A DNA stretch of 64,000 nucleotides from Pseudoalteromonas sp. Scap06 (lineage in GTDB: Bacteria > Pseudomonadota > Gammaproteobacteria > Enterobacterales > Alteromonadaceae): the NCBI RefSeq assembly GCF_013394165.1, contig NZ_CP041331.1:1-64000 (forward strand), read 5' to 3'. Positions 41,841 through 60,405 of this stretch are shown in pieces. A program made the translations under genes and the position numbers. The notes beneath the pieces were generated by a model. That model did no database searches and was not told the DNA's origin. It saw only the letters and a list, made by a program, of their open reading frames with translations. The stretch's first letter is position 1; each line of letters begins with the position of its first letter.

Positions 41841-42055
41841 ACATTCACCTTCATTTTAATTAATTTTTTGGTAAACAAAATGAGTAAATAAATCACTCAA
41901 CGTTGTATCTACTGATTTAAATACTGTTATTTTTTATCTACTTTTTCGAACAGGTATATTTTGTTTGGCTAAATAAGCCAGTTCAACACACGGCAAGCTC
42001 TGTAAATATACCTTCTTGCATTGATAACAATAACTTACCAGTTTCATTTAATATA
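41841..42055. other. Intergenic region, no gene seen
   Basis: First third of a 650-base gap between the DUF3592-like gene and the Oar-like receptor. AT-rich, with no convincing open frame; the degraded coding sequence to the right may once have extended into it. Confidence 0.4.
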
Positions 42056-42404
42056 TTAATTACTATCTACAAATAAACTGCTACGAGTGATTGCGGAAGT
42101 ATCATATTCACGACTATCTTTATGATGATTTTCAATTAAATCAATATGTGTGTCTGATGCAAGCCATTTAAAATAATATATAATGACTCACCGTCCATAT
42201 GCATATCAAGGGTATAGATGTGTAACCAATCGGGTTGTGACTACTGCCAATGAGAAAACAAAGCTGAGTCATAATTATCCCTTGTTATTTTTGCATGCAA
42301 TGTGCCTTCATTTCTTGTAATAAAAGTGCCAATAACTCACTACAAAAATGCCAAACAGCTGCCTGCCCAGCATCGAGGCTGTGTTGCTCTTGATGAGAAT
42401 GTGC
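42056..42404 (-). pseudogene. Degraded coding sequence of unrecognised family
   Basis: Minus-strand reading gives coherent but interrupted protein: HSHQEQHSLDAGQAAVWHFC followed by SELLALLLQEMK and a stop at 42285; then, after an ATG at 42272, LDMHMDGESLY in one frame; and, after a shift, KWLASDTHIDLIENHHKDSR continuing to SLFVDSN with a stop at 42056. At least one internal stop and one frameshift separate them. The peptide composition is clearly protein-like, but I do not recognise the family. It lies just beyond the 3' end of the Oar-like receptor gene and on the same strand. Confidence 0.5.
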
Positions 42405-42488: not shown

Positions 42489-45482
42489 TTAAAACTCTAT
42501 TCGTGCGGTCAATGACACATAGCGAGCACCTTGACGTCCTGTCACTAAGCCATAATCAGGATTAAGCTTTAAGCCATTTTCACCGTACTGAGCACGCTCT
42601 TCGTTGATATTTATCGCACTATCGCTATTAAGCAAATTATAAACAGTGCCTTTTAAAATCACGTTTGAGCCAAAAAAGTCAGTGTAGTACGTCAATGACA
42701 TGTCTATATTAGTGAGCCAAGGTAAATTACCTTTACTGCCACGTGGCGCAGGGTTGCCATTTTCATCATAATGAGATGCTTGATCGTAATATTTACTAAC
42801 ACATGCATCCCATGGGCTTCCTTGTTCGCAGCTATCGACACCTTCAGGGTGAACTGAGAAGTAGCTCTTTGGACGACCTGATGTAGTTCGCGCAACTAAA
42901 CCTAGGGTCAATGAATCGGTAATATTATAGGCGCCACTAAACTTAATAGCGTGGCGGTGGTCATTTGGTAAATTACCATAGCCATGATCCATCAAATCAC
43001 CATAGTCGTAGGAGGTCGTCCAACCAGGATCGGCTTGGTTATTATCCGTTTTAACTAAACCTTCGGTATTACCATAGCTATGTGACCATGTATATGAAGT
43101 ATTGATACGCAAGTCATCAGTTATATTGCCATCTAAGGTAAACTCAAGCGCCAAATATTTGCGTTGTGCTTCGGCAAGTGCAAGTTCATCAGCACTTAAA
43201 TTTACGTTATCAATTTCTCCATCACCATCAAAGTCATACGACATTTGAATCGCTTCACCAGGGTTATTGAGTACGTAATATGAACCTTGCCCTACGTTAT
43301 CGGTTATACCCATTTCAGCAAGCTTTTTGGCAAGCACAGGGCCTACATCAGTGTCTTCAACACTGCGACCTAAATCACGGTAAATAGCACGTACACCTGC
43401 AGACATCGTATCAAACACTTCTTGCTGATAACCAATTGTAAATTCATCGCTGTACATTGGTTTTAAAGAAGCAGAGGCAATTAGCCCTGGTTCAGTAATA
43501 CCCCGCTGACGCCAGCGTCTATCACGTAACATATCCCCTCTGCTAGGTGAGCCATCAGCTAATAAAGAAGGTGAACCGCTACCTTCTAATTGATCCAGTT
43601 CGAAATACTCAAACCATTCAATAGATGCAGAACCTTGGGTGATATTCATGTTCGCAGAGACAGGTTGAAAATAACGCCCAAAGGTTGCAAATACTTTTGC
43701 ACTACCATCACCATTAACGTCATAAATTGCTTGTATACGTGGCGCGATTTGATTATCTATATCAACAAAAGCCCGACCATCTGAAACAGTGTTTTCGAAC
43801 TGGCTATAACGCAAACCCATATTAAGCACTAAATTATCAGTAGCTTGCCATGAATCATTAATGTAAAACGCTAATGAAGTGGTAGCAGAATCGACCTCAC
43901 GGCTACGAATCCTTCTTTCGATAAAGTCAGTACCTAGTGTAGCGCCCGATACATCGTTTTCACCGGCCGTTTTTACTGTCCACCAGCCTTTAGCATCCCC
44001 AATACCATTTTGACCTTCAAAAAAATCGACCTTCACGTTAGTGTAATCAATACCAAATTGGATTGAATGCATATCCAAATCCCAGTTAAAATCAATGCGA
44101 GCTTGGTCTCGGATGTACTCTTCTTCTGTTATTCCTGAATTAGTGTGCTGGCTTAACGTAACAAAACCATTTCTTTCATCCCATACACCTGGGTTTGGAG
44201 ACGCTACCACGTTCTCAACATTCTCAGTAACACGGCCAACAACGGCTGACACTGAAAAAGTATCTGTCAGATAGCCATTGTAGTTAATACTATAAACATT
44301 ACCGCCATCTTCACCTGGTGCATCTACCCCTTGCTGATCACCCACAACATTATCTTTCCAATTATAAGCAAACGTTTTGTCAGTCCAAGTACGTTTATTG
44401 TTCATTGCAGAGAAACCAATAGAGTGATCTTCATTAATAAACCAATCCACTTTCGTGAACCAACGATCTTCATCACGCTCAAAATCAGAGAACGTGGTTT
44501 GCCCAGCGCTGCTAGACTCTTCTCTGCGTGGAGCAAATAAGCCATAGAAGAACAGCGTATCTTCAATAAGCGCACCGCTCGCCCATAACTGTACTTCTTT
44601 AAAATCGTAACTACTTTGCTTAGTGTTGGTACTGATGGTGCCACTATCTTGAAATATTGAATCATGCTGATTACGAAGACTATCAGGATCCCAGCGCACC
44701 TCTGCACCAAGTTTAAAATCATTATCGCCTGATTTAGATACAGCGTTTACAATACCGCCTAATGCCCCTCCAAATTCAGGGCTAACACCACCCGTTTTAA
44801 CTTGAGTTTGCGAAATAGCCTCCCATGGAAGACGAATTGAACCTAACCCTGTGCGAATACTGGTTACATTCAAGCCATTAAAATAGTAGCCATTCTCAGC
44901 GGCTGATGAGCCACCAAAACTAGAGGCTCCTTTGAAATTAGAACCACCAGGAGCTGCAGTACCTGGCGCTAGTAACGCAATACTCTCAAAACCAGTATTT
45001 ACCGGCATTGCTTTAAGTTCAGCATCACTAAACGTTAAGCCAGAGGTGGAAGATGCCATATCTACACGACGAATTGCCGAACCTGCTACCGCGATACGCT
45101 CTATATCAATACCAGCTTTATAAAGTTGTACATCAAGTATTATTGATTGGCCAATAGTTACCGCAACATTTTCTTCAGTCATTGCTTGATAACCGTCTTT
45201 TACAATAGTTACATCGTATGTACCTACAGGTACGTTTCTTAATAAGTAATCACCCTCGGCGTTACTGGTAATGGTGTAAACCAACCCTTTGCTTTTGTGC
45301 TTAAGTGTAATAGTTGCGCCGGTTAAATCATTCCCCGATTGCGCAACAATATGACCTTTAACAATACTACTGCCATCAACAGCGTGTGCCGCTGGTGCAA
45401 TTAATAATGCTGCTGTTACCGCAGTTGCCAGCAGAGTTCTAGCACCCACGCCTCGAGTTTGTTTTTTATTATTTGTAATCAT
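42489..45482 (-). CDS. Oar-like TonB-dependent receptor, probable collagen-peptide uptake
   Basis: A 997-residue outer-membrane protein. After the signal peptide (TLLATAVTAALLIAPAAHA) comes a carboxypeptidase-regulatory-like beta domain (about residues 40-120: VKGHIVAQSGNDLTGATITL, EGDYLLRNVPVGTYDV), then the plug (VNTGFESIALLAPGT) and a large barrel ending VSLTARIEF. This is the Oar/OmpA-related TonB receptor type, found with proteolytic systems. AAGGAA precedes the start. An operator palindrome identical to those at the collagenase and hydroxyproline genes lies 70 bases upstream, so peptide uptake is inferred. Transcribed away from the deaminase gene. Confidence 0.85.
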   Translation of the reverse strand: MITNNKKQTRGVGARTLLATAVTAALLIAPAAHAVDGSSIVKGHIVAQSGNDLTGATITLKHKSKGLVYTITSNAEGDYLLRNVPVGTYDVTIVKDGYQAMTEENVAVTIGQSIILDVQLYKAGIDIERIAVAGSAIRRVDMASSTSGLTFSDAELKAMPVNTGFESIALLAPGTAAPGGSNFKGASSFGGSSAAENGYYFNGLNVTSIRTGLGSIRLPWEAISQTQVKTGGVSPEFGGALGGIVNAVSKSGDNDFKLGAEVRWDPDSLRNQHDSIFQDSGTISTNTKQSSYDFKEVQLWASGALIEDTLFFYGLFAPRREESSSAGQTTFSDFERDEDRWFTKVDWFINEDHSIGFSAMNNKRTWTDKTFAYNWKDNVVGDQQGVDAPGEDGGNVYSINYNGYLTDTFSVSAVVGRVTENVENVVASPNPGVWDERNGFVTLSQHTNSGITEEEYIRDQARIDFNWDLDMHSIQFGIDYTNVKVDFFEGQNGIGDAKGWWTVKTAGENDVSGATLGTDFIERRIRSREVDSATTSLAFYINDSWQATDNLVLNMGLRYSQFENTVSDGRAFVDIDNQIAPRIQAIYDVNGDGSAKVFATFGRYFQPVSANMNITQGSASIEWFEYFELDQLEGSGSPSLLADGSPSRGDMLRDRRWRQRGITEPGLIASASLKPMYSDEFTIGYQQEVFDTMSAGVRAIYRDLGRSVEDTDVGPVLAKKLAEMGITDNVGQGSYYVLNNPGEAIQMSYDFDGDGEIDNVNLSADELALAEAQRKYLALEFTLDGNITDDLRINTSYTWSHSYGNTEGLVKTDNNQADPGWTTSYDYGDLMDHGYGNLPNDHRHAIKFSGAYNITDSLTLGLVARTTSGRPKSYFSVHPEGVDSCEQGSPWDACVSKYYDQASHYDENGNPAPRGSKGNLPWLTNIDMSLTYYTDFFGSNVILKGTVYNLLNSDSAININEERAQYGENGLKLNPDYGLVTGRQGARYVSLTARIEF

Positions 45483-45551
45483 GTAAGAATTCCTTGGTCC
45501 TGTAGATTTTTATTGTGAGACTAACCTCGACGTAAAATATACATAAATTAC

Positions 45552-45567
45552 ATATTGTATACAATAT
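45552..45567. promoter_or_regulatory. Collagen/hydroxyproline regulon operator, copy 1
   Basis: Perfect 16-bp palindrome ATATTGTATACAATAT, centred about 77 bases upstream of the Oar-like receptor start. The core ATTGTATACAAT recurs at three other promoters of this locus. Size and symmetry fit a GntR/FCD (FadR or VanR branch) regulator; the GntR gene at 47433-48101 is the natural candidate. Confidence 0.8.
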
Positions 45568-45690
45568 TAAATATATGATAATTTTTAGTTAAAATTTAAA
45601 TACAAATTAAACAAAGTCAATTGCTCTGCAAGTTTGTAACTAAAGGAAGCTTTATTAAGTATCGTAATTTAATACATGAGCTGAAGTATT

Positions 45691-45886
45691 TAACCTGAAC
45701 TCTGGTTAAGAGATATACTAATATTTTGAATCAAAGTGATATTTATGTTTATTTTCTCTAGCCAGAGATTTTCAGTGGGTACTAAGCGAAATTACTTGCA
45801 ATAGTTAGCCTATTGCAAGTAGATTAAACTCAGTTAACGCTAAGAATAGCTACTTGGGGTAGGTTTATAATCCAGAGTTCAGGTTA
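45691..45886. repeat. Inverted-repeat-bounded element (MITE-like)
   Basis: Perfect 15-bp terminal inverted repeats TAACCTGAACTCTGG (45691-45705) and CCAGAGTTCAGGTTA (45872-45886) bound 196 bases. Inside is a perfect 11-bp hairpin ACTTGCAATAG / CTATTGCAAGT (45794-45820). No open frame is present. Size and terminal repeats fit a miniature inverted-repeat transposable element; a target-site duplication is not clear. It sits between the receptor and deaminase promoters. A long-range RNA structure is the alternative. Confidence 0.5.
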
Positions 45887-46054
45887 TTAAGAAGCAAACT
45901 ATAGTTCGTGAAGATAGTTAAATGATTAACCCCACTTTATATAGTTAGCGTTACTCGCCTTTGCATGCCCCTGTATAATTTACATATACGATACCCTTTT
46001 AATTTAGTTCTTAGACTTGCCGAAGTTAATTTTACTGATACAATCGAAATGTAT

Positions 46055-46066
46055 AATGTATACAAT
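46055..46066. promoter_or_regulatory. Collagen/hydroxyproline regulon operator, copy 2
   Basis: AATGTATACAAT, 11 of 12 identical to the other copies, 23 bases upstream of the deaminase start and therefore probably overlapping its promoter or transcription start. Confidence 0.75.
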
Positions 46067-46088
46067 ATTACTTATTAGAGGAAATATA

Positions 46089-47057
46089 ATGGAAACAAAC
46101 TGTAAAGATTGGCGATACACAGTTATGCCAGCCGTATTTACATGGCTCAAAGAAACAGAGTCTGGAACCGTTGCAATTGACCTTGATGCAACGAAAAAAT
46201 ACGCTGCAGATATTTTAAAGGTGCAAGGCAAAGGTGGAACTCGTATGGGAGGCCTTGTTGGCTCTGGTACTCTTGGTGAGAACAGCTACCTAAGCTCCGA
46301 ACAGCGTCTTTCTTTACTAAAAGCTCTCTCAAGTGTTGCTAAAGAATACAATGTTCCATTGATTAGTGGCGCAGCCGCAGAAACCAAAGAAGAGCTGGCC
46401 AAAATTGTTACAGAGCTAGCAACTGTTGGCGTGGACACCGTAATGGTGATGCCACCAAAAACCAAATACACGCCTTCTGATGAGGAAATGTATGCGTATT
46501 ATTCCCTTTCTGCCACAGCTGCAAAAGAGGCCGGTATTACAATAATGCCTTATAACAACCCGGACGCCGCTGGCTATCATCCACTTTCAACTGACCTTCT
46601 AACAAAGCTTGCCGCTTTACCTGAAGTTACGGCGCTTAAAATATCCACCATAGATGTATCTGTCATTGAAACGATGGTGCTAGAAAATAAGGACATAAAA
46701 GTACTCGCAGGTGTAGATACGGTAACTATACATGCAGGACTCGCTGGCGCATGCGGTGGAATTACAGGCGTTGGCTGTATATTTCCAAAAGCGAGTGTCA
46801 CTATGCAGGAATACGTGAATAAAGGTGAGTGGGCCGAGGCAAACAAAATTTCTCAAGCTATGAATTCTATATCTTACCTTGATGCACAACCGTTACTTTT
46901 AGAATACCTTAAGTTTGCATTTGGCATTCATCATAATGATGTAACTGGCGGGCTTCGTACTTTTGGTAAAAAGTTAAATCAACAGCAAATTGATGATGTA
47001 CACACAAGGTATGCCTTAGCAAAAGAACGACTCGAGGGTCTGGGTTTAATAGACTGA
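46089..47057 (+). CDS. DapA/NAL-family lyase, probable 1-pyrroline-4-hydroxy-2-carboxylate deaminase
   Basis: A 322-residue aldolase-fold enzyme of the dihydrodipicolinate synthase superfamily. The Schiff-base lysine is Lys184 in TALKIS, the catalytic tyrosine lies in IMPYNNP, and the substrate loop is GSGTLGENSYLS. In hydroxyproline catabolism a member of this family deaminates and dehydrates cis-4-hydroxy-pyrroline carboxylate to alpha-ketoglutarate semialdehyde; that role is inferred from its neighbours (epimerase, dehydrogenase, semialdehyde dehydrogenase). The start at 46089 follows GAGGAAA; the frame opens further upstream without support. Single-gene unit with its own operator and terminator. 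Confidence 0.85.
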   Translation: METNCKDWRYTVMPAVFTWLKETESGTVAIDLDATKKYAADILKVQGKGGTRMGGLVGSGTLGENSYLSSEQRLSLLKALSSVAKEYNVPLISGAAAETKEELAKIVTELATVGVDTVMVMPPKTKYTPSDEEMYAYYSLSATAAKEAGITIMPYNNPDAAGYHPLSTDLLTKLAALPEVTALKISTIDVSVIETMVLENKDIKVLAGVDTVTIHAGLAGACGGITGVGCIFPKASVTMQEYVNKGEWAEANKISQAMNSISYLDAQPLLLEYLKFAFGIHHNDVTGGLRTFGKKLNQQQIDDVHTRYALAKERLEGLGLID

Positions 47058-47081
47058 ATTTTCAAAAATTGACAAGCAAAA

Positions 47082-47105
47082 GCTCCGTTTTTACGGAGCG
47101 TTTTT
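47082..47105 (+). terminator. Intrinsic terminator
   Basis: Stem GCTCCG / CGGAGC with loop TTTTTA and tail GTTTTT, 24 bases after the deaminase stop. Confidence 0.85.
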
Positions 47106-47432
47106 GTAGCTATAGATAAGCTGCTCTTGCGGTGATTGCGCTGACCTTATTAAATAATCATACTTGAGCATAAAAGAAAATCAGATATATCGTTTATTCA
47201 AATATAGCGTAAGACTAAGCTTTGCACTTCTGAGTTTTTTACCCTATCTAGCTAAAGTATTTTTTACATACCCACTTAATAATACAGAAAAGTTGATGGG
47301 ACCTTGTTCAGTTAGCTAACATCGCATTAAGCAAACTAATCGAGGTAAGTTAAAGACAACATAAATATAGCATTCTTATTTGCCTACGGGCAGCAAGCTG
47401 AGCACATGATAAAAAATGTGGCTTATTTAACA
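47106..47432. other. Intergenic region, no gene seen
   Basis: About 330 bases between the converging deaminase and GntR genes. AT-rich, with no convincing open frame, repeat or terminator for the GntR gene beyond short A/T runs. Confidence 0.5.
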
Positions 47433-48101
47433 CTACCTTTTTTCGTCTTCTATTTTAAGTAATAGCTTTTTAATGTCGTTTTTGGCGCCTAAGATATGCT
47501 TTTTCAAAAAGTCACACGCTTTTTTAGTGTTCTTTGCACGACAGTGATTTAACAATATACGGTGCTCTTCTGGTGCTGTGGTTAAACCACCCGCTAGTAA
47601 AATATGCATGCGCACATAACGCTCTGAATTTTTACTATACATATCAACTAGTTCACGAGTTTGTGGGCGTTGTGCGCGTGAATACAACTTACCATGAAAA
47701 CGGCTGTTTAAATCGCCCGTTGCTAGGTGGGTATCACCTGCATCCATGGCGCTTTCTAGCTCAGTTAAGATAAGCTCAGCATCAATTAAATCTTGATCTG
47801 TTAAACCTTCTATTGAGTGACTTAGCAGCTCAGCCTCAAGTAATGCCCTTAAATCAAAGATTTCATCAATTTGTGATGCTGAAAGCTCTGTTGCCGTGGC
47901 TCCTTTATGCGCTTCAAAATTTACAAGCCCTTCAGCTTCGAGCTGAAGCAGTGCCTCACGAACAGGTATTCGGCTTACATTAAGCTCAGCAGCAAGTGCA
48001 GCTTGACGCAGTGGATCACCAGCTTTGATTTCACCGGTTAATATTTTTTCACGAATTGCTTCTGCTACTAATTGGGTGCGTGTTTTGTGTTCGATAGCCA
48101 T
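47433..48101 (-). CDS. GntR-family (FCD domain) transcriptional regulator
   Basis: A 222-residue regulator. N-terminal winged helix: RTQLVAEAIREKILTGEIKAG, AALAAELNVSRIPVREAL and LEAEGLV; C-terminal all-helical FCD ligand domain with the metal-type residues in FDLRALLE, FHGKLYSRA and HRILLNHCRA. The start at 48101 is chosen for AAGGAT upstream; the frame opens at 48122. FCD regulators bind short palindromes with a TNGTATACNA-like core, so it is the likely reader of the four ATTGTATACAAT sites. A degenerate site (8 of 12) TTAGCATACATT lies at 48123-48134 next to its own start, suggesting autoregulation. It probably senses a hydroxyproline metabolite. Confidence 0.88.
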   Translation of the reverse strand: MAIEHKTRTQLVAEAIREKILTGEIKAGDPLRQAALAAELNVSRIPVREALLQLEAEGLVNFEAHKGATATELSASQIDEIFDLRALLEAELLSHSIEGLTDQDLIDAELILTELESAMDAGDTHLATGDLNSRFHGKLYSRAQRPQTRELVDMYSKNSERYVRMHILLAGGLTTAPEEHRILLNHCRAKNTKKACDFLKKHILGAKNDIKKLLLKIEDEKR

Positions 48102-48235
48102 GGTGATCCTTAAGTATTGCATTTAGCATACATTATACTCAAGTAACATGAGATGCCAAGTTAGATTCCGTCCTCAGTTAGCGTTTATAAAGGAAAAGCG
48201 GGAATATACAATTTGCATATCCCGCCCAATGAATC

Positions 48236-49732
48236 TTATGCTTGATAGCAAATTGGTCGCATAAAACGTAACATTGCATTTGTGCCTACAGAGGTACTAC
48301 GTACATCCGTTGAGCTTGGAAATGGCCCACCGTGGTTCATTGAACCACACACTTCAACACCTGTTGGCATCTGATTTTTTATCAAACGACCCACTTTATA
48401 TTGCAGTGCTTCGATGAGGCTATCTGCTTTGCTTAAATCCGCTTTCGTGCCATGAACGCTGGCTGTAAGCTGCCCTTGCAGTTTATTTATTAATGTCATA
48501 AGTTGCTGTTCACTGTCGTAACGCACAACTAATGCAGCAGGGCCAAACATTTCTTCATTCAACGCTGGGGTTGTTAAATAATCGTCGGCATTACAAACGA
48601 ATACATGTGCATTAGCATGGAACGTTTGCTCAAGCTTACCTTTCCCTAACACGCTTACTTGAGCAAGTTGGCCTCGCTCTTCTACTTGATGTTTAAACGT
48701 TTTAACAATGTCTGGCGTGAGCAAAGTGTCTGATGGTGCATCATTAATGCTCGCAGTAATATGTGCTTCAAGCTCATCACACCCGGTTGGCACTAACCAA
48801 AGCCCAGGGCTGGTGCAAAACTGGCCGTTACCCATAAGCATTGACTGGCAAAGTGACTGCGCCATTTCTTTACTCTGTTCAATGGCTTTATTGGGTAAAA
48901 TAACTTGAGGGTTAATACTACCCAGCTCACCATAAAATGGGATGGGCTCTTCACGTTTAGCAATCGTTTCTTGCAGTTTACTAGCCACGTTAAATGAGCC
49001 TGTAAAGCCAACCGCTTTAATTGCCGGCGCTGCAACTAATTGATGCGATATGTCATGCTCCTTACTTTGCACCATTGCAAACACGCCTAATGGCATCGCA
49101 CATTCTTTTATGGCTGCAAGCGCCGCACGTGCCATCAACTCGCCAGTTCCTGGATGCGCTGTGTGATTTTTAACAATGACCGGGCACCCAGCAGCAAGTG
49201 CCGCTGCTGTATCGCCACCCAATGTTGAAAAGGCATAAGGAAAATTAGATGCACCAAACACAGCAGCCGGCCCCAATGGTAAATAGTTAAGTTCAGTGTG
49301 TGGTTTTGGTAACGGTGATCTTGTTGCATCGGCCTCATCCACTATTTTTAAACCCAAAGGTGATTCAGGGTTTTCGCGCAATGCACTGGCAAACGCTTTA
49401 AGTTGATTTACGGTGCGCATGCGCTCCCCCTGCAATCGCGCAAGCGGTAAGTTGGTTTCTTGCTGAGTTTGCTCAAGTAGATCATCACCAAGCGCTAATA
49501 TTTGATCTGCAATACACATTAAAAAATCAGCACGTTGTGCATAGCTAGTTTTACGATACTCATAAAAAGCCGATTGTGCGGCTTCGATTGCAACGTTTAA
49601 TTCAGTGGCGCTGAGATTAAAAAAGCATGTAGGTAGTGGTTCATTACCAGCGGGAGAAAATGCATTAAATTCACCATTCGCTGAATCACCAACCCATTGT
49701 CCTGCTACTAAACTTTGTCCTGTTAATGTCAT
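48236..49732 (-). CDS. Aldehyde dehydrogenase, probable alpha-ketoglutaric semialdehyde dehydrogenase
   Basis: A 498-residue member of the aldehyde dehydrogenase superfamily. Visible: AVFGASNFPYAFSTLGGD (cofactor site), ELGSINPQVILP and the catalytic cysteine in GNGQFCTSPGL. These variants (FGASNFP rather than PWNFP) are typical of 2,5-dioxovalerate dehydrogenases, which oxidise alpha-ketoglutarate semialdehyde to 2-oxoglutarate, the last step of hydroxyproline breakdown. It lies 13 bases downstream of the epimerase gene in the same direction. Confidence 0.88.
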   Translation of the reverse strand: MTLTGQSLVAGQWVGDSANGEFNAFSPAGNEPLPTCFFNLSATELNVAIEAAQSAFYEYRKTSYAQRADFLMCIADQILALGDDLLEQTQQETNLPLARLQGERMRTVNQLKAFASALRENPESPLGLKIVDEADATRSPLPKPHTELNYLPLGPAAVFGASNFPYAFSTLGGDTAAALAAGCPVIVKNHTAHPGTGELMARAALAAIKECAMPLGVFAMVQSKEHDISHQLVAAPAIKAVGFTGSFNVASKLQETIAKREEPIPFYGELGSINPQVILPNKAIEQSKEMAQSLCQSMLMGNGQFCTSPGLWLVPTGCDELEAHITASINDAPSDTLLTPDIVKTFKHQVEERGQLAQVSVLGKGKLEQTFHANAHVFVCNADDYLTTPALNEEMFGPAALVVRYDSEQQLMTLINKLQGQLTASVHGTKADLSKADSLIEALQYKVGRLIKNQMPTGVEVCGSMNHGGPFPSSTDVRSTSVGTNAMLRFMRPICYQA

Positions 49733-49745
49733 GTTTTGCTCCTGA

Positions 49746-50747
49746 TTATATTACTTGAAACCCAAATGCATATGGGTCATCGTCATCGACTGTGATAGCA
49801 CTTGTGCCTGTTACTCTAGACCAACCTTGAATACTTGGCAGAATAGCTGTTACGCCTGCGATTTCTGTTACCTGTTCAATACGGCCGATAAATTGGCTAC
49901 CGATATAACTTTCGTGGATAAATTCTTGCCCTTGGGCCAACTGCCCTTTCGCAAAAAGCTGTGCCATACGGGCGCTAGTGCCTGTTCCACATGGTGAGCG
50001 ATCAATGGCTTTGTCACCATAAAAAACAGCATTTGCGGCATGTGAATTGGCATTTTTAGGTGTGCCTGCCCATAACACATGGCTTGCACCTTGAACGGTT
50101 GGGTCAAGGGGGTGAACACATTTTATTTTTGCGTTTATGGCATCACGCACCTGCGGGCTGTACTTTAAAATTTGCCCAGCGGTTAAATGCTCAATGCCTT
50201 TGTAATTGGCTTGCGGTTCAACAATAATGTAGAAGTTACCTCCGTAGGCAATATCTACTTTAAGCTCGCCCAGTTCAGGTACTTCAATTACAATTGACTG
50301 ATATGCTAAGTACGCGGGAACATTATAAATTTTTACCCACTGAACTTTACCATCGGTCATTTCATAATTGATTCGTACACGTCCAGCTGGCGTATCTAAT
50401 AGCAAGGTCCCGGGCACTTTTGCATGTAATAAACCATGCTCTAAAGCAAACGTAACAATACCCATTGTGCCGTGGCCGCACATGGGCAAGCACCCTGATG
50501 TTTCAACAAATAAGATAGCGGCATCGCCGTCTTCTGTGGTAGGCGGATATAAAAATCCGCCCGACATCATATCGTGACCACGAGGCTCAAACATTAGCGC
50601 TTGGCGTATCCAATCGTGATTTTGAAAAAAGTCTTGGCGTTTCTCACTCATGCTCTGTCCGCTCAATTGCGGGTGACCACTGGTAATTAGCCTTACGGGA
50701 TTGCCACAGGTATGGCCGTCAATACAAAAAAAGGTCCCTTTGAGCAT
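49746..50747 (-). CDS. 4-hydroxyproline 2-epimerase (proline racemase family)
   Basis: A 333-residue cytoplasmic enzyme converting trans-4-hydroxy-L-proline to cis-4-hydroxy-D-proline. Both catalytic cysteines are present: Cys90 in PMCGHGTMG and Cys253 in SPCGTGTSAR. This pair separates epimerases and racemases from trans-3-hydroxyproline dehydratases, which carry Ser/Thr at the first site. Members usually show about 310-335 residues. It starts three bases after the stop of a 74-residue gene and is followed by the semialdehyde dehydrogenase, so the three are co-transcribed. Confidence 0.92.
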   Translation of the reverse strand: MLKGTFFCIDGHTCGNPVRLITSGHPQLSGQSMSEKRQDFFQNHDWIRQALMFEPRGHDMMSGGFLYPPTTEDGDAAILFVETSGCLPMCGHGTMGIVTFALEHGLLHAKVPGTLLLDTPAGRVRINYEMTDGKVQWVKIYNVPAYLAYQSIVIEVPELGELKVDIAYGGNFYIIVEPQANYKGIEHLTAGQILKYSPQVRDAINAKIKCVHPLDPTVQGASHVLWAGTPKNANSHAANAVFYGDKAIDRSPCGTGTSARMAQLFAKGQLAQGQEFIHESYIGSQFIGRIEQVTEIAGVTAILPSIQGWSRVTGTSAITVDDDDPYAFGFQVI

Positions 50748-50750
50748 AAC

Positions 50751-50975
50751 TTAATCCAACTTTAATTTTGTTACGTCAATACCGCTTGCCATTGCTTTAG
50801 TGTAAAGCGTGGTAACAGCTGCATTTTCATCTGATGCGTTTAGCTTAATAACGCTGTGAGCAGTTTGATTATTTAGCTCATCGATCATGTTTGCGCTACT
50901 TGCAAAATGAATAGCGCCATCTTCATTAAACTGAGCCGAAAACGATCCAAAGGCCTGTTGCCAATTTACTGTCAT
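50751..50975 (-). CDS. Small protein of unknown function in the hydroxyproline operon
   Basis: A 74-residue protein starting MTVNWQQAFGSFSAQFNEDG. It appears soluble, with no signal peptide or membrane segment, and ends SGIDVTKLKLD. No family recognised. The start at 50975 is used because an AGG site precedes it; the frame opens at 51035 but would overlap the operator. It is the first gene of the minus-strand operon, only three bases before the epimerase, and 42 bases from the operator at 51018, so it is expressed with the pathway. Confidence 0.6.
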   Translation of the reverse strand: MTVNWQQAFGSFSAQFNEDGAIHFASSANMIDELNNQTAHSVIKLNASDENAAVTTLYTKAMASGIDVTKLKLD

Positions 50976-51016
50976 TTTAATTACCTGATTGATGTTTATG
51001 CTTGATATAGTAGGTA

Positions 51017-51030
51017 TATTGTATACAATA
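51017..51030. promoter_or_regulatory. Collagen/hydroxyproline regulon operator, copy 3
   Basis: Perfect palindrome TATTGTATACAATA in the gap between the divergent epimerase and dehydrogenase operons. It is nearer the minus-strand operon, but may control both. Confidence 0.8.
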
Positions 51031-51244
51031 ATCAATATCCTATTTCAGCATTCCTTTCTTTAGTGGCATTGAAGGGCATCTATAAAACAGCAGCAAAAAC
51101 ATTAAACCATTGAATCTAAACAACAATGAAGCAAAATAACAAGTATTGAAAAATCATATCTCGTAACTTAAAAAATAAATGCAATTTTGAGATAGACACA
51201 ATACATCCGTCACAACAAACATATTGCATAAAGAGGTAAGCATT

Positions 51245-52534
51245 TTGTCTGATAATAAAACACAACATATTGGCGTGGTTGGAGCAGGTATAATCGGTAT
51301 TTGTTGTGCGTTAAAATTACAACGCGCTGGCTTTACAGTTACTTTGTATGATGAAAATGGCTTAGCTCAAGGCTGCTCGAAAGGGAATGCTGGGCACTTT
51401 GCAACAGAGCAAGTATTTCCTTTAGCGCACTCATCGTTATTAAAAAAGCTGCCTATGATGCTATTAAACCCACTCGGCCCTCTTAGAATAGATTGGCGCT
51501 ATGTGATCAAAGCACTACCTTGGTTTTGGCGGTTTGTTAATAACATGGCTAGCTCAACCTATAAAGCAAATACCCACGCTTTACAGGCGCTCAACCACCG
51601 TGCAATTACAGCCTACGAGACCCTGCTAGATGAATTCAAATTAAATCATTTAATAACAAAGAAAGGGAGCTTGCTCACTTTCGAAACAACGCCAGTTACA
51701 CAAATACAGGCTATGTTTGAAAAATATTTATCACACGGTATCGCTGTAGAGCTGCTCAATGCTGAACAACTACAACGACTGGAACCTAATTTAGCAAAAA
51801 CCATAACGCATGCATTATTTTTTAAAGAGGTAGCACACAGCGTTGATCCTCATTTATTTTGCTTAAGTTTAGCTGAGCAATTTAGAGCTTTAGGTGGGCA
51901 GTTTTGCCAACAAAAAGTGATTGAGGTTTCACCTGTTTATAGTGGCTATGAAATTAATTGCCCTGACCAAAAATTTCAAGCCGATAAAGTCATCATCGCA
52001 GCTGGTGCGTGGAGCAAATTACTGCTCAAGCCCTTAGGTTACAATGTACCTCTTGATACAGAGCGAGGCTATCATTGCATGTTATCGAGTAATTATGGTC
52101 TATCTCGTCCTGTCGCCTCTGCAGAGCGCAGTTTTATTATGACACCCATGAGCCAAGGTTTACGAATTGCTGGAACAGTAGAGTTCGCAGGTACAGAACG
52201 TAAAATGAATAATAAACGCGCTTTGGCATTATTACCCAATGCCAAAGCAATGCTCAATCATTCAGCGGTAACACTTCAACCTAGTAGCGTGTGGATGGGC
52301 TGCAGACCATCACTGCCCGATTCATTACCGGTCATAGGCGAAGCACCTAACCACACTAATTTATTTTTTGCATTTGGCCACCAGCACCTTGGATTAACTC
52401 AAGGTGCTATTACAGGTGAGCTAATAACTAGTTTGTGTTTACAACAAGTACCTAGCGTAGATATAAAACCATATTGTATCAGCCGCTTTTCATCTCAAGC
52501 TGCTTGCAGTTCACACGCCCCACTTGCACAATAG
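51245..52534 (+). CDS. FAD-dependent D-amino acid dehydrogenase, probable D-hydroxyproline dehydrogenase
   Basis: A 429-residue flavoprotein of the DadA/DAO family. The FAD motif IGVVGAGIIGICCALKLQ is at the N-terminus, and GHQHLGLTQGAITGELI near the C-terminus is characteristic. In this context it would oxidise cis-4-hydroxy-D-proline to the pyrroline, passing electrons to the respiratory chain. The start is a TTG at 51245, because AGAGGTAAG is ideally placed before it; the TTG seven codons upstream lacks a site. Followed 22 bases later by the M24 peptidase gene. Confidence 0.88.
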   Translation: MSDNKTQHIGVVGAGIIGICCALKLQRAGFTVTLYDENGLAQGCSKGNAGHFATEQVFPLAHSSLLKKLPMMLLNPLGPLRIDWRYVIKALPWFWRFVNNMASSTYKANTHALQALNHRAITAYETLLDEFKLNHLITKKGSLLTFETTPVTQIQAMFEKYLSHGIAVELLNAEQLQRLEPNLAKTITHALFFKEVAHSVDPHLFCLSLAEQFRALGGQFCQQKVIEVSPVYSGYEINCPDQKFQADKVIIAAGAWSKLLLKPLGYNVPLDTERGYHCMLSSNYGLSRPVASAERSFIMTPMSQGLRIAGTVEFAGTERKMNNKRALALLPNAKAMLNHSAVTLQPSSVWMGCRPSLPDSLPVIGEAPNHTNLFFAFGHQHLGLTQGAITGELITSLCLQQVPSVDIKPYCISRFSSQAACSSHAPLAQ

Positions 52535-52556
52535 TCACACTTACGAGGAAAGCACT

Positions 52557-53777
52557 ATGATAGCCCAAGGTATTGGTACCCATACCAAAGAACAAGCACT
52601 TGCCAGTTTATCTAATATGACTGACGATTTAACCCCGATCCAACCGCAAGAGCACCTAGAACGAATTAAAAAAGCTCAAGTATACATGCAACAAAATGGT
52701 ATTGACGCCATATATCTAAACGCTGGTACAAATCTTACTTATTTTACGGGAATGCGTTGGTATGCCAGTGAAAGACTGGTGGGAGCAATTTTACCTGCAC
52801 AGGGCGATGTACAATATATTGCTCCTTTTTTTGAAATTGGTTCACTCAATGGCTTTAAAGTGATTGATGGCCCAATTCATGGTTGGCAAGAACATGAAAG
52901 CCCATATCAGCTATTTGTAGATGTAATAACCGAAATGGGCATTGCAAAAGATGGCACTATTGGCATTGATGAAAGTGCACAGTTTTTTATTTTTGATGGC
53001 ATTAAAAAAGCACAAAGCGGCTTAAAACTGGTTAACGCACAACCCGTAACAGCACATTGTCGTATGCACAAATCAACCAATGAACTTGCATTAATGCAAC
53101 GCGCAATGGATATGACCTTAGTGGTACATAAAGCCACAGCCAGTATGCTGTATGAAGGCATTAGCACCACTGAAGTAGAAGCTTTTATTAAACAAGCGCA
53201 CCAAAAAGTAGGTGCGCCAGGTAACTATTTTTGCATTGTGTTATTTGGTGTTGCTACCTCTTTTCCCCATGGCGTAAAAGACGCGCAAATTCTTAAAAAA
53301 GACGATGTGGTATTAATTGATACTGGCTGTAAAGTGCACGATTACTTATCTGATATCACCCGCACTTATGTGTTTGGCGAAGCAAGTGATCGCCAGCGCC
53401 AATTTTGGGATTATGAAAAAGCGGCACAAATAGCTGGATTTAATGCAGCAAAAATAGGCCAAACATGTCAAGACGTAGATGCTGGAGCTCGTAATTATTT
53501 AGCTGAGCAAGGCCTTGGTCCTGAATATCAAACGCCAGGGTGCCCACACCGTACCGGCCACGGCATTGGCTTAGACATTCACGAGTGGCCTTATTTAGTC
53601 GGCGGCGATAAAACCCCTCTGGCCACCGGTATGTGCTTCAGTAACGAACCCATGCTCGTTGTACCAAATGAGTTTGGTATAAGATTAGAAGATCACTTTT
53701 ATATGACCGACAACGGGCCAAAGTGGTTTACTGAGCCATCCCATAGTATCGACGACCCATTTAAATCAACCAGTTAA
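52557..53777 (+). CDS. M24-family Xaa-Pro-type peptidase
   Basis: A 406-residue metallopeptidase. The pita-bread catalytic domain shows the metal ligands: Asp residues in LIDTGCKVHDYLSDITRTY, His in GHGIGLDIHEWP, and Glu residues in FSNEPMLVVPNEFGIRLEDHF. The N-terminal creatinase-like domain contains IDAIYLNAGTNLTYFTG. No signal peptide, so cytoplasmic. It would cleave X-Pro or X-hydroxyproline peptides, which are abundant in collagen digests. Start at 52557, with GAGGAA upstream. Second gene of the operon led by the dehydrogenase. Confidence 0.9.
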   Translation: MIAQGIGTHTKEQALASLSNMTDDLTPIQPQEHLERIKKAQVYMQQNGIDAIYLNAGTNLTYFTGMRWYASERLVGAILPAQGDVQYIAPFFEIGSLNGFKVIDGPIHGWQEHESPYQLFVDVITEMGIAKDGTIGIDESAQFFIFDGIKKAQSGLKLVNAQPVTAHCRMHKSTNELALMQRAMDMTLVVHKATASMLYEGISTTEVEAFIKQAHQKVGAPGNYFCIVLFGVATSFPHGVKDAQILKKDDVVLIDTGCKVHDYLSDITRTYVFGEASDRQRQFWDYEKAAQIAGFNAAKIGQTCQDVDAGARNYLAEQGLGPEYQTPGCPHRTGHGIGLDIHEWPYLVGGDKTPLATGMCFSNEPMLVVPNEFGIRLEDHFYMTDNGPKWFTEPSHSIDDPFKSTS

Positions 53778-54119
53778 CTTATAACACTCTCTGCTGCATG
53801 TATACGAAAACCATGCAGCCACTGGCACTACTCACTTCACTTAGCTTGTTTTTGAGTAATTAATAATAAATTTGCAACATTCCATCAGAGATTAGGCGCC
53901 TCTTGCTGTTCACCATATAGGTAGTGTTTTGTACTGCTATTACAGTGAACTGCTTGAGGTAAATAAGTGTATGAAATCACGTACTTTACCAAAGCGAAGC
54001 ATTATGCTTCTGGCATAAACCTCCCACTTAGGCAAAACGTGGGATGTATTTTATAAGGTAAGCGTAGGTCAGCTGGTTAACCATTTTCCGCGCTAGAGAC
54101 TTGGTAAATTAATGCTCAT
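53778..54119. other. Intergenic region with small hairpins
   Basis: About 340 bases after the M24 peptidase gene. It contains a short palindrome GAAGCATTATGCTTC near 53995-54010 and a CCCAC/GTGGG stem near 54027-54045 followed by ATGTATTTTA, possibly the operon's terminator. No open frame with a credible start. Confidence 0.4.
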
Positions 54120-54353
54120 TTGTTTGGCCCTTATTCAGGTCTTACTACGGGTACTATTTCTTTTACTGCGACACCTTACGACCAAGCTGCGCCAATAAAT
54201 ACACAACAACAGGACGTTGCAATCACGCCTTATGAAGATAAGAAATACGAGTTTGGGTTAACCCCTACCTCTGAAGCAATGTTAATCACGATCACGGCAC
54301 GATTAGATGTAGACGGAGAAGAAATTCGCATCATCAAAAAGCAACCAATATAA
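54120..54353 (+). pseudogene. Orphan open frame, probable gene remnant
   Basis: A 77-codon frame with a TTG at 54120 but no ribosome binding site, closed upstream by a stop at 54105. The peptide (SGLTTGTISFTATPYDQAAP, later EFGLTPTSEAMLITITARLD) looks like the beta-rich end of a larger secreted or surface protein. It sits between the M24 peptidase and collagenase genes and ends at their shared terminator. Most likely the 3' end of a lost gene; a genuine small protein is not excluded. Confidence 0.35.
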
Positions 54354-54390
54354 CCTTTTGAAGACAAAAGTAGTGTAAAAACCTTTCAAA

Positions 54391-54431
54391 AAAATCAATG
54401 CCGACCAGTGAGCAAGCTGATCGGCATTTTT
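54391..54431. terminator. Bidirectional intrinsic terminator
   Basis: Stem AATGCCGA / TCGGCATT (54397-54428) with an A-run before and a T-run after, between plus-strand genes and the converging collagenase gene. Confidence 0.8.
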
Positions 54432-54504
54432 CAGTTTAAGTGTTATTCCATAGATAGTGTGAATAAACTTTTCCAATAAAAGTAATCATTAATAGGGCGA
54501 GTAA

Positions 54505-57279
54505 TTAACGACATCCACTACTGTTATAGTCAACGACTAAACTAACACCATTACTTGAGCCTGATACCTTTAAGTAACCCCAATATTGGCTTGAATTAGC
54601 AATATAAATACACTCGTCGTTACCACTATTATTTGACTCAGCCAATTCGTTATTGCCATTAGGCCACGAGCTCTCGGCATAGCTAAGGCTTATATCGCCA
54701 CTGCCATTGGCCGTGGTGATTGTAATCCCACTTTGACTTTGCACATCAGCAAGACTAAACCACATCGGACCGCTGTTACCTAAACAAACCGCTTCGCCAT
54801 CATTTAAACGACCGTTGCTACGACTGCCTTGTGTGGCACATACATCGGGCACATTGGAAGTGGCTGGCATATAAGACGCTGTTAATTGCACATTTTCAAA
54901 TGCATTATATCCATATAACATAACCTGATAAGTACCAACTTGTACTGGGTCAATGGCGCACTGCTCTTCGTTACCACCAATATAAGGACGACAATCGTAA
55001 ACGGTCTCTGTTGGTGCCGCTTCATAGCTTACATACAGGTCAGCATCTCCTTCTCCTCCAGTAATTGTAAATACTAGTTCACTGGCACCTTGCGGAACGG
55101 CAAAAGTAAAGTATTGCTGCTCATTTTGCGCGCCGTTAGTCTGAACTGTTTGATTATTTTGCAATATGTTATCACCGACACTACTATCTTTTTCGATGGT
55201 CGCTGTCGTGATAGCTGATTGACTTGCTCCTTGATTGTCAGTAACTATCAAACTTACGTTGTACTCCCCTTCACTGATATACCTGTGAAGTGGATTAGCC
55301 TGATTCGAGCTACTGCCATCACCAAAGTTCCATTGATAACTTACAATTGAGCCATCGCTATCAATACTGCCATTGCTGGTAAAACTGACGTCATTATTTT
55401 GCACGCCATAATATGGGCCGTTGATTTGAACTGTCGGCGGAATATTTGAAGGCGCGCCAGCAACTAAATCATCGCACCATTGTACAAATTCACTTTCGTA
55501 ACTACTTTTCCACTGTTCTGTTTTTGCTTTGTAGGCAATCCAATCACCCACTCTGGTATGGGCAAGCATAGTATTAATTTCATCATAATGGCGTTCAAAC
55601 ATAAACCTAACAGCTAGGTAACCCCAACGATAGATTCGGTCTTGATCAAAACCATCATAAGTAGTGGAAAAGATTTGTGCTAGGGTAAAACGTGAGCCAT
55701 CACTAATGGTTTCTTTTGCTGCGTCATTATCATTTAAATTAGCAATGTATTCAGCAACCCCTTCCGACCACCAAACAACATCTTCTGTAGGAGAGTTAAA
55801 GTCGCCATACAGATCAAATCGCCCATCGAGATAGTGCACATATTCGTGCTCTAAATTCCAAACGAAATGCTCTGCATTTGCATAATTTGCTTCATAAGCA
55901 ATAAAGTTTGCTTGGTTGCCAACAACGGATGGATCACCTTCTAAATACATGCCACCATTATTGGTATTAATACCAAAAATGACCCCCGCATATTTACCGT
56001 AATCGTCGCTACTATCGAAAATATTCACTTGTAAAAAGCTATTATTATCATCAGCTACGGGGGTGTTATTAGTGGCAAGTTTAGTATGGAATAGCCCTTC
56101 CTCAGCACCCATTGCATCACACGCGGCGGCATGTTGCGCAACAGTCATATTTTGCGAACGAATTTTAATCGTGCTACTGCAACTATAGCTTTGTGGCAGT
56201 GCTTGACCTATCAGGTTATCTACAAACCCACAAATACCATAATCATTACAATCTGCGTAATAACTAACCGAGTCAGCTGCCGCAAGCCAAACCGCATCAC
56301 CATAACCAAAGCTAGTATACGTTGAAAAAATAGCATTTAGACCAGTATCTACAGCACTTTGAATCGGTGTATCTGAGTATTGCTTTAACCGAGCAAGTTC
56401 ACTTGCTGCATTAACAATAAGGTACTGTGCGTCTGATCCAATCATCCATTGTTTTTGAGTAAACGCACTGAGCCTTGTTACTAAATCAGTGTCTTTGCCC
56501 ACTGCCGTAACAAATTCATCATTCCATTGACCACGATATAACAAGGTAAAAATACCATTCACTGCACTTCGTACATTCCACTTAGCGCCGTAGCTTTCAT
56601 TAAAACGGCTCAACCATTGTTTTACCACTTCAAGGTAACGATGCTGTTGCTCTGAGCTGTCCATTGTGATGATTACTTCGTTTAACGTTTTAGCATGACC
56701 GTCGTTATCGTCGTAAAAATGACTATTGGCAACAAATGCATCAACCGCCCCCACAACTGCGGTGGTGACCCACGTTGCAAAACTAACATTGTCGTTATAA
56801 AACTCAGCGTAAAAACCAGTTCGTAGGTATAAAAATAACGCTTCCAACTCTACATTTCCGCCGCCAGCATAAGTCAGTGAAAGTGCCTTAGCATGATTTG
56901 CAACAGCAAACATTTTATCAGACGTAAACACCTGACTTTGTGTTAAAGCAGAGGCACTAAACAACTCATTAATACATTGTGTACCTTGGTTTTGAATTTC
57001 TGTAATAATACTTGATGTGCTCGCGTTTGCTAATGCATTCAAATCACACGTAACGGCGACTGCTTGCATCGTCATCACACGCGCATTAAAAAGTTTTTGC
57101 TGGCTTTGCATTTTTGCAATCGGTGCTTTTTCATTATGATTTTGTTCAACGCCATGATGATGTAAACGCTCTACAACGGCTGTCTGAGGTATAAATGTTC
57201 GCTCCTCCACCTTGTCAGCCAATGCCATTGAACTCATACCTAATATCGGTAACGTCAAAATCAGTGTGTTAATTTTCAT
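54505..57279 (-). CDS. Secreted M9-family collagenase with PKD and PPC domains
   Basis: A 924-residue secreted zinc metalloprotease. Signal peptide MKINTLILTLPILGMSSMALA; collagenase activator and peptidase region to about residue 620, with the zinc site HEYVH (His478, Glu479, His482) and the third ligand Glu510 in GVAEYIANL. A PKD domain (about 625-705, VSYQWNFGDGSSS) and a pre-peptidase C-terminal (PPC) domain (about 710-810, ADLYVSYEAAP) follow, then a second PPC-like segment to the end. This matches Vibrio-type collagenases. An operator of the hydroxyproline regulon lies 76 bases upstream, so it is co-regulated with the breakdown of the released hydroxyproline. Confidence 0.93.
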   Translation of the reverse strand: MKINTLILTLPILGMSSMALADKVEERTFIPQTAVVERLHHHGVEQNHNEKAPIAKMQSQQKLFNARVMTMQAVAVTCDLNALANASTSSIITEIQNQGTQCINELFSASALTQSQVFTSDKMFAVANHAKALSLTYAGGGNVELEALFLYLRTGFYAEFYNDNVSFATWVTTAVVGAVDAFVANSHFYDDNDGHAKTLNEVIITMDSSEQQHRYLEVVKQWLSRFNESYGAKWNVRSAVNGIFTLLYRGQWNDEFVTAVGKDTDLVTRLSAFTQKQWMIGSDAQYLIVNAASELARLKQYSDTPIQSAVDTGLNAIFSTYTSFGYGDAVWLAAADSVSYYADCNDYGICGFVDNLIGQALPQSYSCSSTIKIRSQNMTVAQHAAACDAMGAEEGLFHTKLATNNTPVADDNNSFLQVNIFDSSDDYGKYAGVIFGINTNNGGMYLEGDPSVVGNQANFIAYEANYANAEHFVWNLEHEYVHYLDGRFDLYGDFNSPTEDVVWWSEGVAEYIANLNDNDAAKETISDGSRFTLAQIFSTTYDGFDQDRIYRWGYLAVRFMFERHYDEINTMLAHTRVGDWIAYKAKTEQWKSSYESEFVQWCDDLVAGAPSNIPPTVQINGPYYGVQNNDVSFTSNGSIDSDGSIVSYQWNFGDGSSSNQANPLHRYISEGEYNVSLIVTDNQGASQSAITTATIEKDSSVGDNILQNNQTVQTNGAQNEQQYFTFAVPQGASELVFTITGGEGDADLYVSYEAAPTETVYDCRPYIGGNEEQCAIDPVQVGTYQVMLYGYNAFENVQLTASYMPATSNVPDVCATQGSRSNGRLNDGEAVCLGNSGPMWFSLADVQSQSGITITTANGSGDISLSYAESSWPNGNNELAESNNSGNDECIYIANSSQYWGYLKVSGSSNGVSLVVDYNSSGCR

Positions 57280-57354
57280 ATTATACCTTCGATGATTAGT
57301 ATGTTCTTAATCCAGAACTGGTTATTGAGATACAATTTGTAACACCTCATTATC

Positions 57355-57366
57355 ATTGTATACAAT
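57355..57366. promoter_or_regulatory. Collagen/hydroxyproline regulon operator, copy 4
   Basis: Perfect ATTGTATACAAT about 76 bases upstream of the collagenase start. It is 290 bases from the plus-strand LacI gene, so it most likely serves the collagenase. Confidence 0.8.
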
Positions 57367-58686: not shown

Positions 58687-58707
58687 GCGCTGTTAGTAGC
58701 GCAGATA

Positions 58708-58738
58708 AAAAAGCCAAGCTTAAGTTGCTTGGCTTTTT
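58708..58738. terminator. Bidirectional intrinsic terminator
   Basis: Perfect 12-bp stem AAAAAGCCAAGC / GCTTGGCTTTTT with a 7-base loop, between the LacI and sucrose phosphorylase genes. Confidence 0.92.
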
Positions 58739-58760
58739 GGTTTTCAACAAATAAAGCTAT

Positions 58761-60267: not shown

Positions 60268-60405
60268 ATATATCTTTAACTAGCAAGTAAGAATTTACAA
60301 GTAATTTTTAAATATTTTACATACAAATATCGTGGCTCGATTAATACTACAATAAGTTACTGACAACTTAATGTGTGTTACCAAGCATTTAACGAGGAAA
60401 AGCAA

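Follow-up and report, generated by a model that had tools for sequence, protein, structure and literature searches.

A probable, reduced collagen-use regulon of the HypR type in Pseudoalteromonas, with a probable replacement deaminase gene and a maintained hypD stump

The hyp regulon of Sinorhizobium meliloti, described by White et al. in 2012, reportedly combines the regulator HypR, hydroxyproline as the inducer, a chain of hydroxyproline-degrading enzymes and the ABC transporter HypMNPQ. This enzyme chain is shared by the locus described here; in the excerpts of two further papers, S. meliloti is given HypMNPQ and no collagenase is mentioned for it (PMC5343134, PMC6608401). The first of these papers, Leyn et al. 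2016, predicted HypR regulons of Alteromonadales that include three secreted collagenases, mostly in Shewanella, together with a TonB-dependent transporter, proline (di)peptidases and a proline di/tripeptide permease; in its excerpted text, hypR is autoregulated in 32 of 46 genomes and the permease is not a core feature (PMC5343134). The second, from 2019 and likewise cited from excerpts, showed that HypR of Streptomyces coelicolor represses a hydroxyproline operon and the M9 collagenase gene SCO5912, with L-hydroxyproline acting as inducer, and it quotes a TKGT/ACMA pattern for sites of the FadR-subfamily type (PMC6608401). HypR has also been named in Shewanella without collagen, according to an excerpt of another paper (PMC3223726). 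Here we describe a locus very probably of this kind in a 64,000-nucleotide stretch from Pseudoalteromonas sp. Scap06 (the window). The window is part of contig 2 (750,889 bases), one of the two contigs that make up the 4.13-Mb genome, and contains a collagenase gene, hydroxyproline genes and the stump of a displaced hypD.

The locus has in common with the Alteromonadales HypR regulon a GntR regulator, hypE, hypO and hypH, a collagenase, a TonB transporter and proline peptidases. It differs in that no permease is present and in that hypD has been replaced by a distant DapA-family gene, with a stump left behind (comparison with the excerpted PMC5343134). With S. coelicolor it shares a GntR/FCD regulator over hydroxyproline genes and an M9 collagenase, although in the window this control is predicted from sequence. 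The S. coelicolor system differs in its site (CTNTGC(A/C)ATGTCAC), in its three-subunit dehydrogenase and in having no TonB receptor in the excerpted regulon table; its collagenase gene, judged by locus number, lies apart from the hydroxyproline operon (PMC6608401). Among the matches listed for collagen or collagenase together with hydroxyproline, only these two papers, as excerpted, bear on one system. The sequence-only reading of the window had held that the coupling of a secreted collagenase to hydroxyproline catabolism is rarely described as one system. However, the coupling was predicted in 2016 (PMC5343134) and shown in Streptomyces in 2019 (PMC6608401), and the central novelty of that reading is therefore already in print. 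The locus is very probably a regulon of this known kind, and what appears particular to the instance is its reduction, the replacement of its deaminase gene and the upkeep of a stump. Neither the hypD replacement nor the stump is mentioned in the excerpts of the two papers. A literature search on the hypD deaminase had no match, and the papers listed for a remnant ORF with coupling concern, by their titles, other subjects; as far as we searched, both features are unreported.

We read the locus, with a probability of about 0.82, as an eroded HypR collagen-use regulon in which hypD has been displaced by the DapA-family gene dapA2 and its stump kept as a probable leader. In the proposed working, HypR would act as a GntR/FCD repressor that binds a palindrome in the promoters, and hydroxyproline or a product thereof would relieve the repression. 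The exported M9 collagenase would cut collagen, the Oar-like TonB receptor would take up the resulting peptides, and the M24 peptidase would liberate proline and hydroxyproline. HypE would convert the latter to cis-4-hydroxy-D-proline and HypO would yield pyrroline-4-hydroxy-2-carboxylate, which DapA2 would deaminate to 2-oxoglutarate semialdehyde for conversion by HypH to 2-oxoglutarate. The deaminase step would thus have moved from an orthodox HypD, once encoded first in the hypE operon, to DapA2 with an operator of its own. The old hypD would have lost its middle in frame, with its start and stop retained as a 74-codon open reading frame (ORF). Most likely, translation of this stump brings ribosomes to a weakly primed hypE start by termination–reinitiation coupling.

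The palindrome ATTGTATACAAT has exactly three exact copies in the genome, all of them inside the cluster, and a copy with one mismatch, AATGTATACAAT, precedes dapA2 (Table 1). Base composition predicts about one exact copy per 4.13 Mb, and three within a 14.9-kb stretch have a P value of about 7 × 10−9. Ten further one-mismatch copies occur elsewhere in the genome, in or beside genes with no evident hydroxyproline link as judged by eye from their translations. A two-mismatch scan of the window was not above chance (7 found, 7.5 expected); the strength of the operator therefore lies in the exact sites and their conservation. The earlier statement that four promoters share one palindrome holds as far as the four operators are concerned. 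Because the operator at 51018 is divergent, however, they serve, by layout, five transcription units. This operator overlaps a −10-like TACAAT, a promoter-like match no more frequent than in shuffles (1 against 2.1). The 113-nt interval between hypH and hypR contains no site with two or fewer mismatches, and hypR may be transcribed by read-through from the hypE operon. A stem-loop with a T-rich tail was also seen at 45793–45821 on the minus strand, between the promoters of the oar gene and dapA2.

Conservation of the hypO–hypE site was assessed in loci L016–L052 of 80 fetched HypE-centred loci (L053–L095 fall outside the scan). The scanned loci comprise the 25 best HypE loci (L016–L040), all from Alteromonadales in the wide sense, and 12 further loci (L041–L052), mostly from other phyla and including one Shewanella. 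In 24 of the 25 Alteromonadales loci the hypO–hypE interval contains a site with at most one mismatch, exact in 21 cases, and the sole exception, L032, starts only 54 bases before hypE. The site is absent from this position in all 12 further loci. Among 12 clade relatives fetched around the cluster, the divergent operator is exact in every one. Nine of them carry an oar orthologue (89–95% identical) and each of these orthologues is preceded by an exact operator; in G001, the copy of this receptor gene looks broken and has a one-mismatch site beside it. Of the 11 relatives from which dapA2 was fetched (all but G048), 10 have a site with no more than one mismatch before that gene; the relative without a site is G070. 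A GntR/FCD regulator gene adjoins the hyp genes, as is typical of HypR regulons, and its product HypR is 86–99% identical in clade relatives, 52–57% in nine Shewanella hyp loci and 30% in L052.

The collagenase gene, colA, was examined in a promoter set of 30 loci drawn from 71 genomes with a colA match, the window included. A site with at most two mismatches lies upstream in 30/30 loci (10 exact, 12 with one mismatch and 8 with two), at a distance of some 80 to 112 bases from the start codon; the start of L167 had been assigned by script 63 bases too early. By contrast, the mean is 1.8 and the maximum 11 of these promoters for 200 palindromes shuffled without change of make-up. Of the 30 colA genes, 18 (57–61% identical) lie on a different contig from hypE or more than 100 kb away from it. 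Absence of the operator from orthologous promoters had been named beforehand as the observation that would count against a shared regulon; the 24 of 25 hypO–hypE regions and the full set of colA promoters instead carry it. Across 108 Pseudoalteromonas genomes, the sample used for all presence and absence counts within the genus, 70 have both hypE and colA, 3 have hypE only, 1 has colA only and 34 have neither (Fisher P = 2 × 10−23, with kinship ignored). In this tally, G039 was entered with a hypE fragment, and G078 and G080 as having no collagenase but a distant one. Genome G050 has colA and lacks both hypE and hypR, and its colA site carries two mismatches, as in seven other loci.

Pfam and NCBIfam profile searches of the window proteins, in which NCBIfam verdicts refer to the families listed, bear out the presence of all eight genes named by the sequence-only reading. 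Its proposed route from collagen to 2-oxoglutarate under one shared operator is likewise supported by the genes and the conserved sites. Genes for the epimerase, D-hydroxyproline dehydrogenase, deaminase and semialdehyde dehydrogenase are all present, the deaminase by way of the replacement gene. 4-Hydroxyproline epimerases are marked by two catalytic cysteines rather than a Cys/Thr pair. HypE carries both cysteine signatures, MCGHG and SPCGTG, whose cysteines we take to be the catalytic residues; with the second cysteine present, its identification as a trans-3-hydroxyproline dehydratase was ruled out. The epimerase is the sole pathway enzyme above an equivalog cut-off among the families listed, and the more specific names given to HypO, HypH and the M24 peptidase therefore rest on family and context. 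HypO is probably a D-hydroxyproline dehydrogenase and the M24 protein probably an Xaa-Pro/Xaa-Hyp dipeptidase. HypH, which has its catalytic cysteine in GQFCT and falls under the cut-off of every NCBIfam family listed, is probably the 2-oxoglutarate semialdehyde dehydrogenase; its gene follows hypE in 25/25 Alteromonadales loci. The collagenase shows the hallmarks of its family, with M9 N-terminal and catalytic domains, HEYVH at residue 478, a downstream glutamate and a hydrophobic N-terminal leader, and is predicted to cleave collagen. The Oar-like receptor probably serves in outer-membrane import of collagen peptides.

The deaminase step departs from this common pattern. In many relatives an orthodox hypD lies between the operator and hypE, the place occupied by the 74-codon ORF in the window. 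DapA2 belongs to the DapA family and is a candidate for the step, as had been proposed. However, it is only 29% identical to orthodox HypD and has its own operator and promoter in a position that is not before hypE; its identification as the usual HypD was therefore rejected in favour of a replacement. In the 108 genomes, DapA2 (presence defined as at least 80% identity) occurs in 23, orthodox HypD in 49 and both in none, the exclusivity being judged at E = 1 × 10−20, and the two groups of carriers together are exactly the 72 genomes with an intact hypE. In an order-wide sample of 394 genomes, the window's genome included, hypE is present in 7/7 DapA2 genomes and in 41/394 overall (deaminase calls at E = 1 × 10−15 from up to five scored candidates in each genome). 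Moreover, DapA2 has in common with HypD the motifs GTxGEN and YNNP, the Schiff-base Lys184 and a C-terminal LDxxPxL segment, whereas the two further DapA-family proteins of the genome have the lysine and lack GTxGEN, YNNP and LDxxPxL. From the mutual exclusion, the tie to hypE and the HypD-like motifs, we infer that DapA2 does the job of HypD, and it is probably the replacement deaminase for 1-pyrroline-4-hydroxy-2-carboxylate. Signs of recombination were seen around dapA2 in G101 (L241:6129–12057), in the form of partial second copies of hypE, hypH and hypR.

The ORF on the minus strand between the 51018 operator and hypE was absent from the earlier annotation. It joins approximately the first 54 residues of HypD to approximately the last 20, is 37% identical to HypD residues 2–53 and ends in KLKLD where HypD has KFKLD. 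The frame is open in 13/13 clade genomes and, counted from the start that resembles that of HypD, spans 59–74 codons. A 3-nt gap separates its stop from hypE in 11 of the 13; in G048 and G049 the frame runs one base into the hypE ATG. Twelve of these stumps were recovered by tblastn, one of them partly, and that of G035 was recognised by eye from its position and ends. In neutral simulations with substitutions only, all 13 frames stayed open in 0 of 2,000 runs, or in 3 of 2,000 on the slower hypE tree, and neutral decay of the stump was rejected on this ground. Other stumps, of 41 codons in G041, G042 and G043 and of 20 codons in G009, end 1 nt before hypE. In a hypE tree of 47 sequences, in which some species appear twice, G078/G080, both with HypD, form the sister group of the 74-codon clade, and the shorter stumps fall beside a different HypD-bearing group, the 41- and 20-codon groups being joined to each other with a support of only 0.26. 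This separate placement, with HypD-bearing lineages between, points to at least two deletions of hypD. Shine–Dalgarno pairing of hypE is weaker, with a median of −3.15 kcal/mol, in 22 loci in which hypD or a stump ends within 5 nt of it than in 24 other loci (−6.1 kcal/mol), the loci having been sorted by hand and kinship ignored. The stump is probably a leader cistron translationally coupled to hypE, with the coupling kept after loss of the enzyme. On balance we lean towards a wider claim, that the start and stop of the displaced hypD were selected, at least twice, as a short frame feeding ribosomes to hypE. The passage from dead enzyme gene to leader cistron would then be a repeatable route by which an operon loses an enzyme and keeps its coupling.

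The alternative that survives best, though we consider it unlikely, is that the stump encodes a working microprotein that binds, for example, DapA2, HypE or HypR. A frame open far beyond the neutral expectation is what such a protein would leave, its median dN/dS of about 0.64 (76 of 78 pairs usable) is below 1, and the protein database holds three 74-amino-acid proteins that are 84–92% identical to it. However, the corresponding median for hypE is 0.045 (74 pairs), so that the amino acids of the stump change some fourteen times more freely than those of HypE. Its DNA is most conserved over the first eight codons (88%) and least over codons 46–60 (58%), its length varies, and what the other stumps have in common with it is only the HypD-like start and the junction with hypE.

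An improbable alternative is that DapA2 does another job, as an aldolase or dehydratase for some other keto acid, and that a different protein is the deaminase. Its distance from HypD and its PDB relatives, a mixture of DapA- and NanA-type enzymes, would allow this, but the mutual exclusion with HypD, the tie to hypE, the operator in front of dapA2 and the motifs that its two paralogues lack argue for the replacement deaminase. It is slightly more improbable again that the stump is a plain dying pseudogene, still open by chance: internal deletion and fast evolution fit such a gene, whereas 13 open frames out of 13 do not fit the simulations, and four other lost genes in the window are left only as short separate pieces. 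Least probable is that another GntR-type regulator binds the palindrome and that the collagenase stands outside the hydroxyproline regulon, for although palindromes of such a type suit many FadR-subfamily regulators and three loci (L016, L017 and L034) have no adjacent hypR, exact sites are confined to the cluster, the same site accompanies hypR-bearing loci across genera and the colA site is down to two mismatches in the hypR-less G050.

Several observations weigh against our reading of an eroded HypR regulon with a displaced hypD. As to regulation, 8/30 colA sites carry two mismatches; the three loci just named have the operator and no hypR within 10 kb on either side; and the promoter-like matches seen at the operators do not clearly exceed the chance level. 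The host genome also contains a second M9 collagenase gene (contig 1, 1471020–1473818; 64% identical to that of the window) without a site within two mismatches in the 1.7 kb upstream, and not all collagenase therefore belongs to the regulon. The inducer is uncertain, because neither L- nor D-hydroxyproline changed the binding of S. coelicolor HypR in vitro in the excerpted report (PMC6608401). As to the replacement, the two deaminases, DapA2 and orthodox HypD, occur together in G416, and neither was obtained from 6 of the 41 hypE genomes of the order sample. As to the stump, none is recognisable in 6 of the 23 DapA2 genomes (G061, G044, G103, G063, G096 and G099). Those of G035 and of 41 and 20 codons were recognised by eye and not by BLAST, the stump–hypE junction has no unusual RNA structure (z = −0.52), and a microprotein under weak constraint would also fit a dN/dS near 0.64. 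To these is added the neglect of kinship in the co-occurrence and Shine–Dalgarno comparisons.

Table 1. Features of the collagen and hydroxyproline cluster and of the gene relics beside it (window positions).
Feature	Position	Strand	Basis or remark
Relic, two pieces of ornithine-cyclodeaminase-family gene	41862..42166	-	43% over 53 aa and 57% over 35 aa to L209 relative
Relic, piece of second proline-racemase-family gene	42154..42261	-	64% over 36 aa
Oar-like TonB-dependent receptor	42489..45482	-	Pfam CarboxypepD_reg, OMP_b-brl_4, TonB_dep_Rec
Operator, exact ATTGTATACAAT	45554..45565		Before Oar-like TonB receptor gene
Operator, one mismatch AATGTATACAAT	46055..46066		Before dapA2, the probable replacement deaminase gene
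DapA2, DapA-family (DHDPS) protein	46089..47057	+	Pfam family; conserved motifs
HypR, GntR-family regulator with FCD domain	47433..48122	-	PF00392, PF07729
HypH, aldehyde dehydrogenase	48236..49732	-	PF00171
HypE, 4-hydroxyproline 2-epimerase	49746..50747	-	NF010578, 567.6 bits against cut-off of 376
hypD stump, 74-codon ORF	50751..50975	-	HypD-like N- and C-termini; stop 3 nt before hypE ATG
Operator, exact ATTGTATACAAT	51018..51029		Divergent promoter region, stump-hypE-hypH(-hypR) / hypO-m24
HypO, FAD-dependent oxidase family (D-amino-acid oxidase type), probable TTG start	51245..52534	+	PF01266; GAGIIG FAD motif
M24-family peptidase	52557..53777	+	PF00557 and PF01321; under cut-off of every NCBIfam family listed
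Relic, pieces of YgjK-like glycoside hydrolase gene	53843..54032	-	65% over 26 aa and 51% over 39 aa
Relic, C-terminal piece of 820-aa lipoprotein gene	54120..54338	+	51% over 73 aa
ColA, secreted M9 collagenase with PKD and PPC domains	54505..57279	-	PF08453, PF01752; 342 bits against cut-off of 26
Operator, exact ATTGTATACAAT	57355..57366		75 bp before colA start codon; region common to divergent lacI-type gene

The sequence-only reading had called the regulon complete, and this part of it did not stand. Clade relatives have, in or beside the cluster, a POT/MFS transporter, an 820-aa lipoprotein, a YgjK-like glycoside hydrolase, a second proline-racemase-family gene, a second M24 peptidase and an ornithine-cyclodeaminase-family gene, several of them behind the same operator. 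The window holds only short pieces (26–73 residues) of four such genes, at 41862–42261 and 53843–54338. The genome offers only a partial match of 30% to the relatives' POT/MFS transporter, and the cluster has no gene for an inner-membrane transporter. A complete set is ruled out by the relics and the missing permease, and on its gene content the cluster is an eroded form of a larger regulon. The ornithine-cyclodeaminase-family relic probably derives from a pyrroline-2-carboxylate reductase gene. The intact relative of the second proline-racemase-family gene has threonine at the position of the second cysteine, a change which makes that gene probably a trans-3-hydroxyproline dehydratase. In the relatives (L205:11689–18342), a single operator lies between the lipoprotein gene, whose product has Big_2 as its only domain, and the POT-like transporter gene, which is followed by the YgjK-like glycosidase gene; as a guess, the sugars carried by hydroxylysine in collagen might be the substrate of this glycosidase.

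Further observations were made around colA. A LacI-family regulator and a sucrose-phosphorylase-type glycoside hydrolase are encoded at 57655–60233, with lacI divergent from colA and the colA operator in the intergenic region common to both; lacI and sucP adjoin colA also in L207 and L221. The ORF that follows the sucP-type gene (60373–61635) reads like a membrane transporter. In G039 (L244:17200–19998), colA with an exact operator, m24 and hypR are kept and hypE and hypH are fragments, a locus that reads as a hydroxyproline pathway in the process of loss.

These results add a well-conserved example, with operator evidence, to the published prediction that marine bacteria link an exported collagenase with what becomes of hydroxyproline, the hallmark amino acid of collagen. 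The displacement of hypD provides a clear case of a pathway step that changes hands while its regulation is kept, and an apparently complete cluster may be the remnant of a larger one. The stump raises the general question of whether translational coupling constrains the deletion of genes from operons, such that broken genes may persist as leader cistrons.

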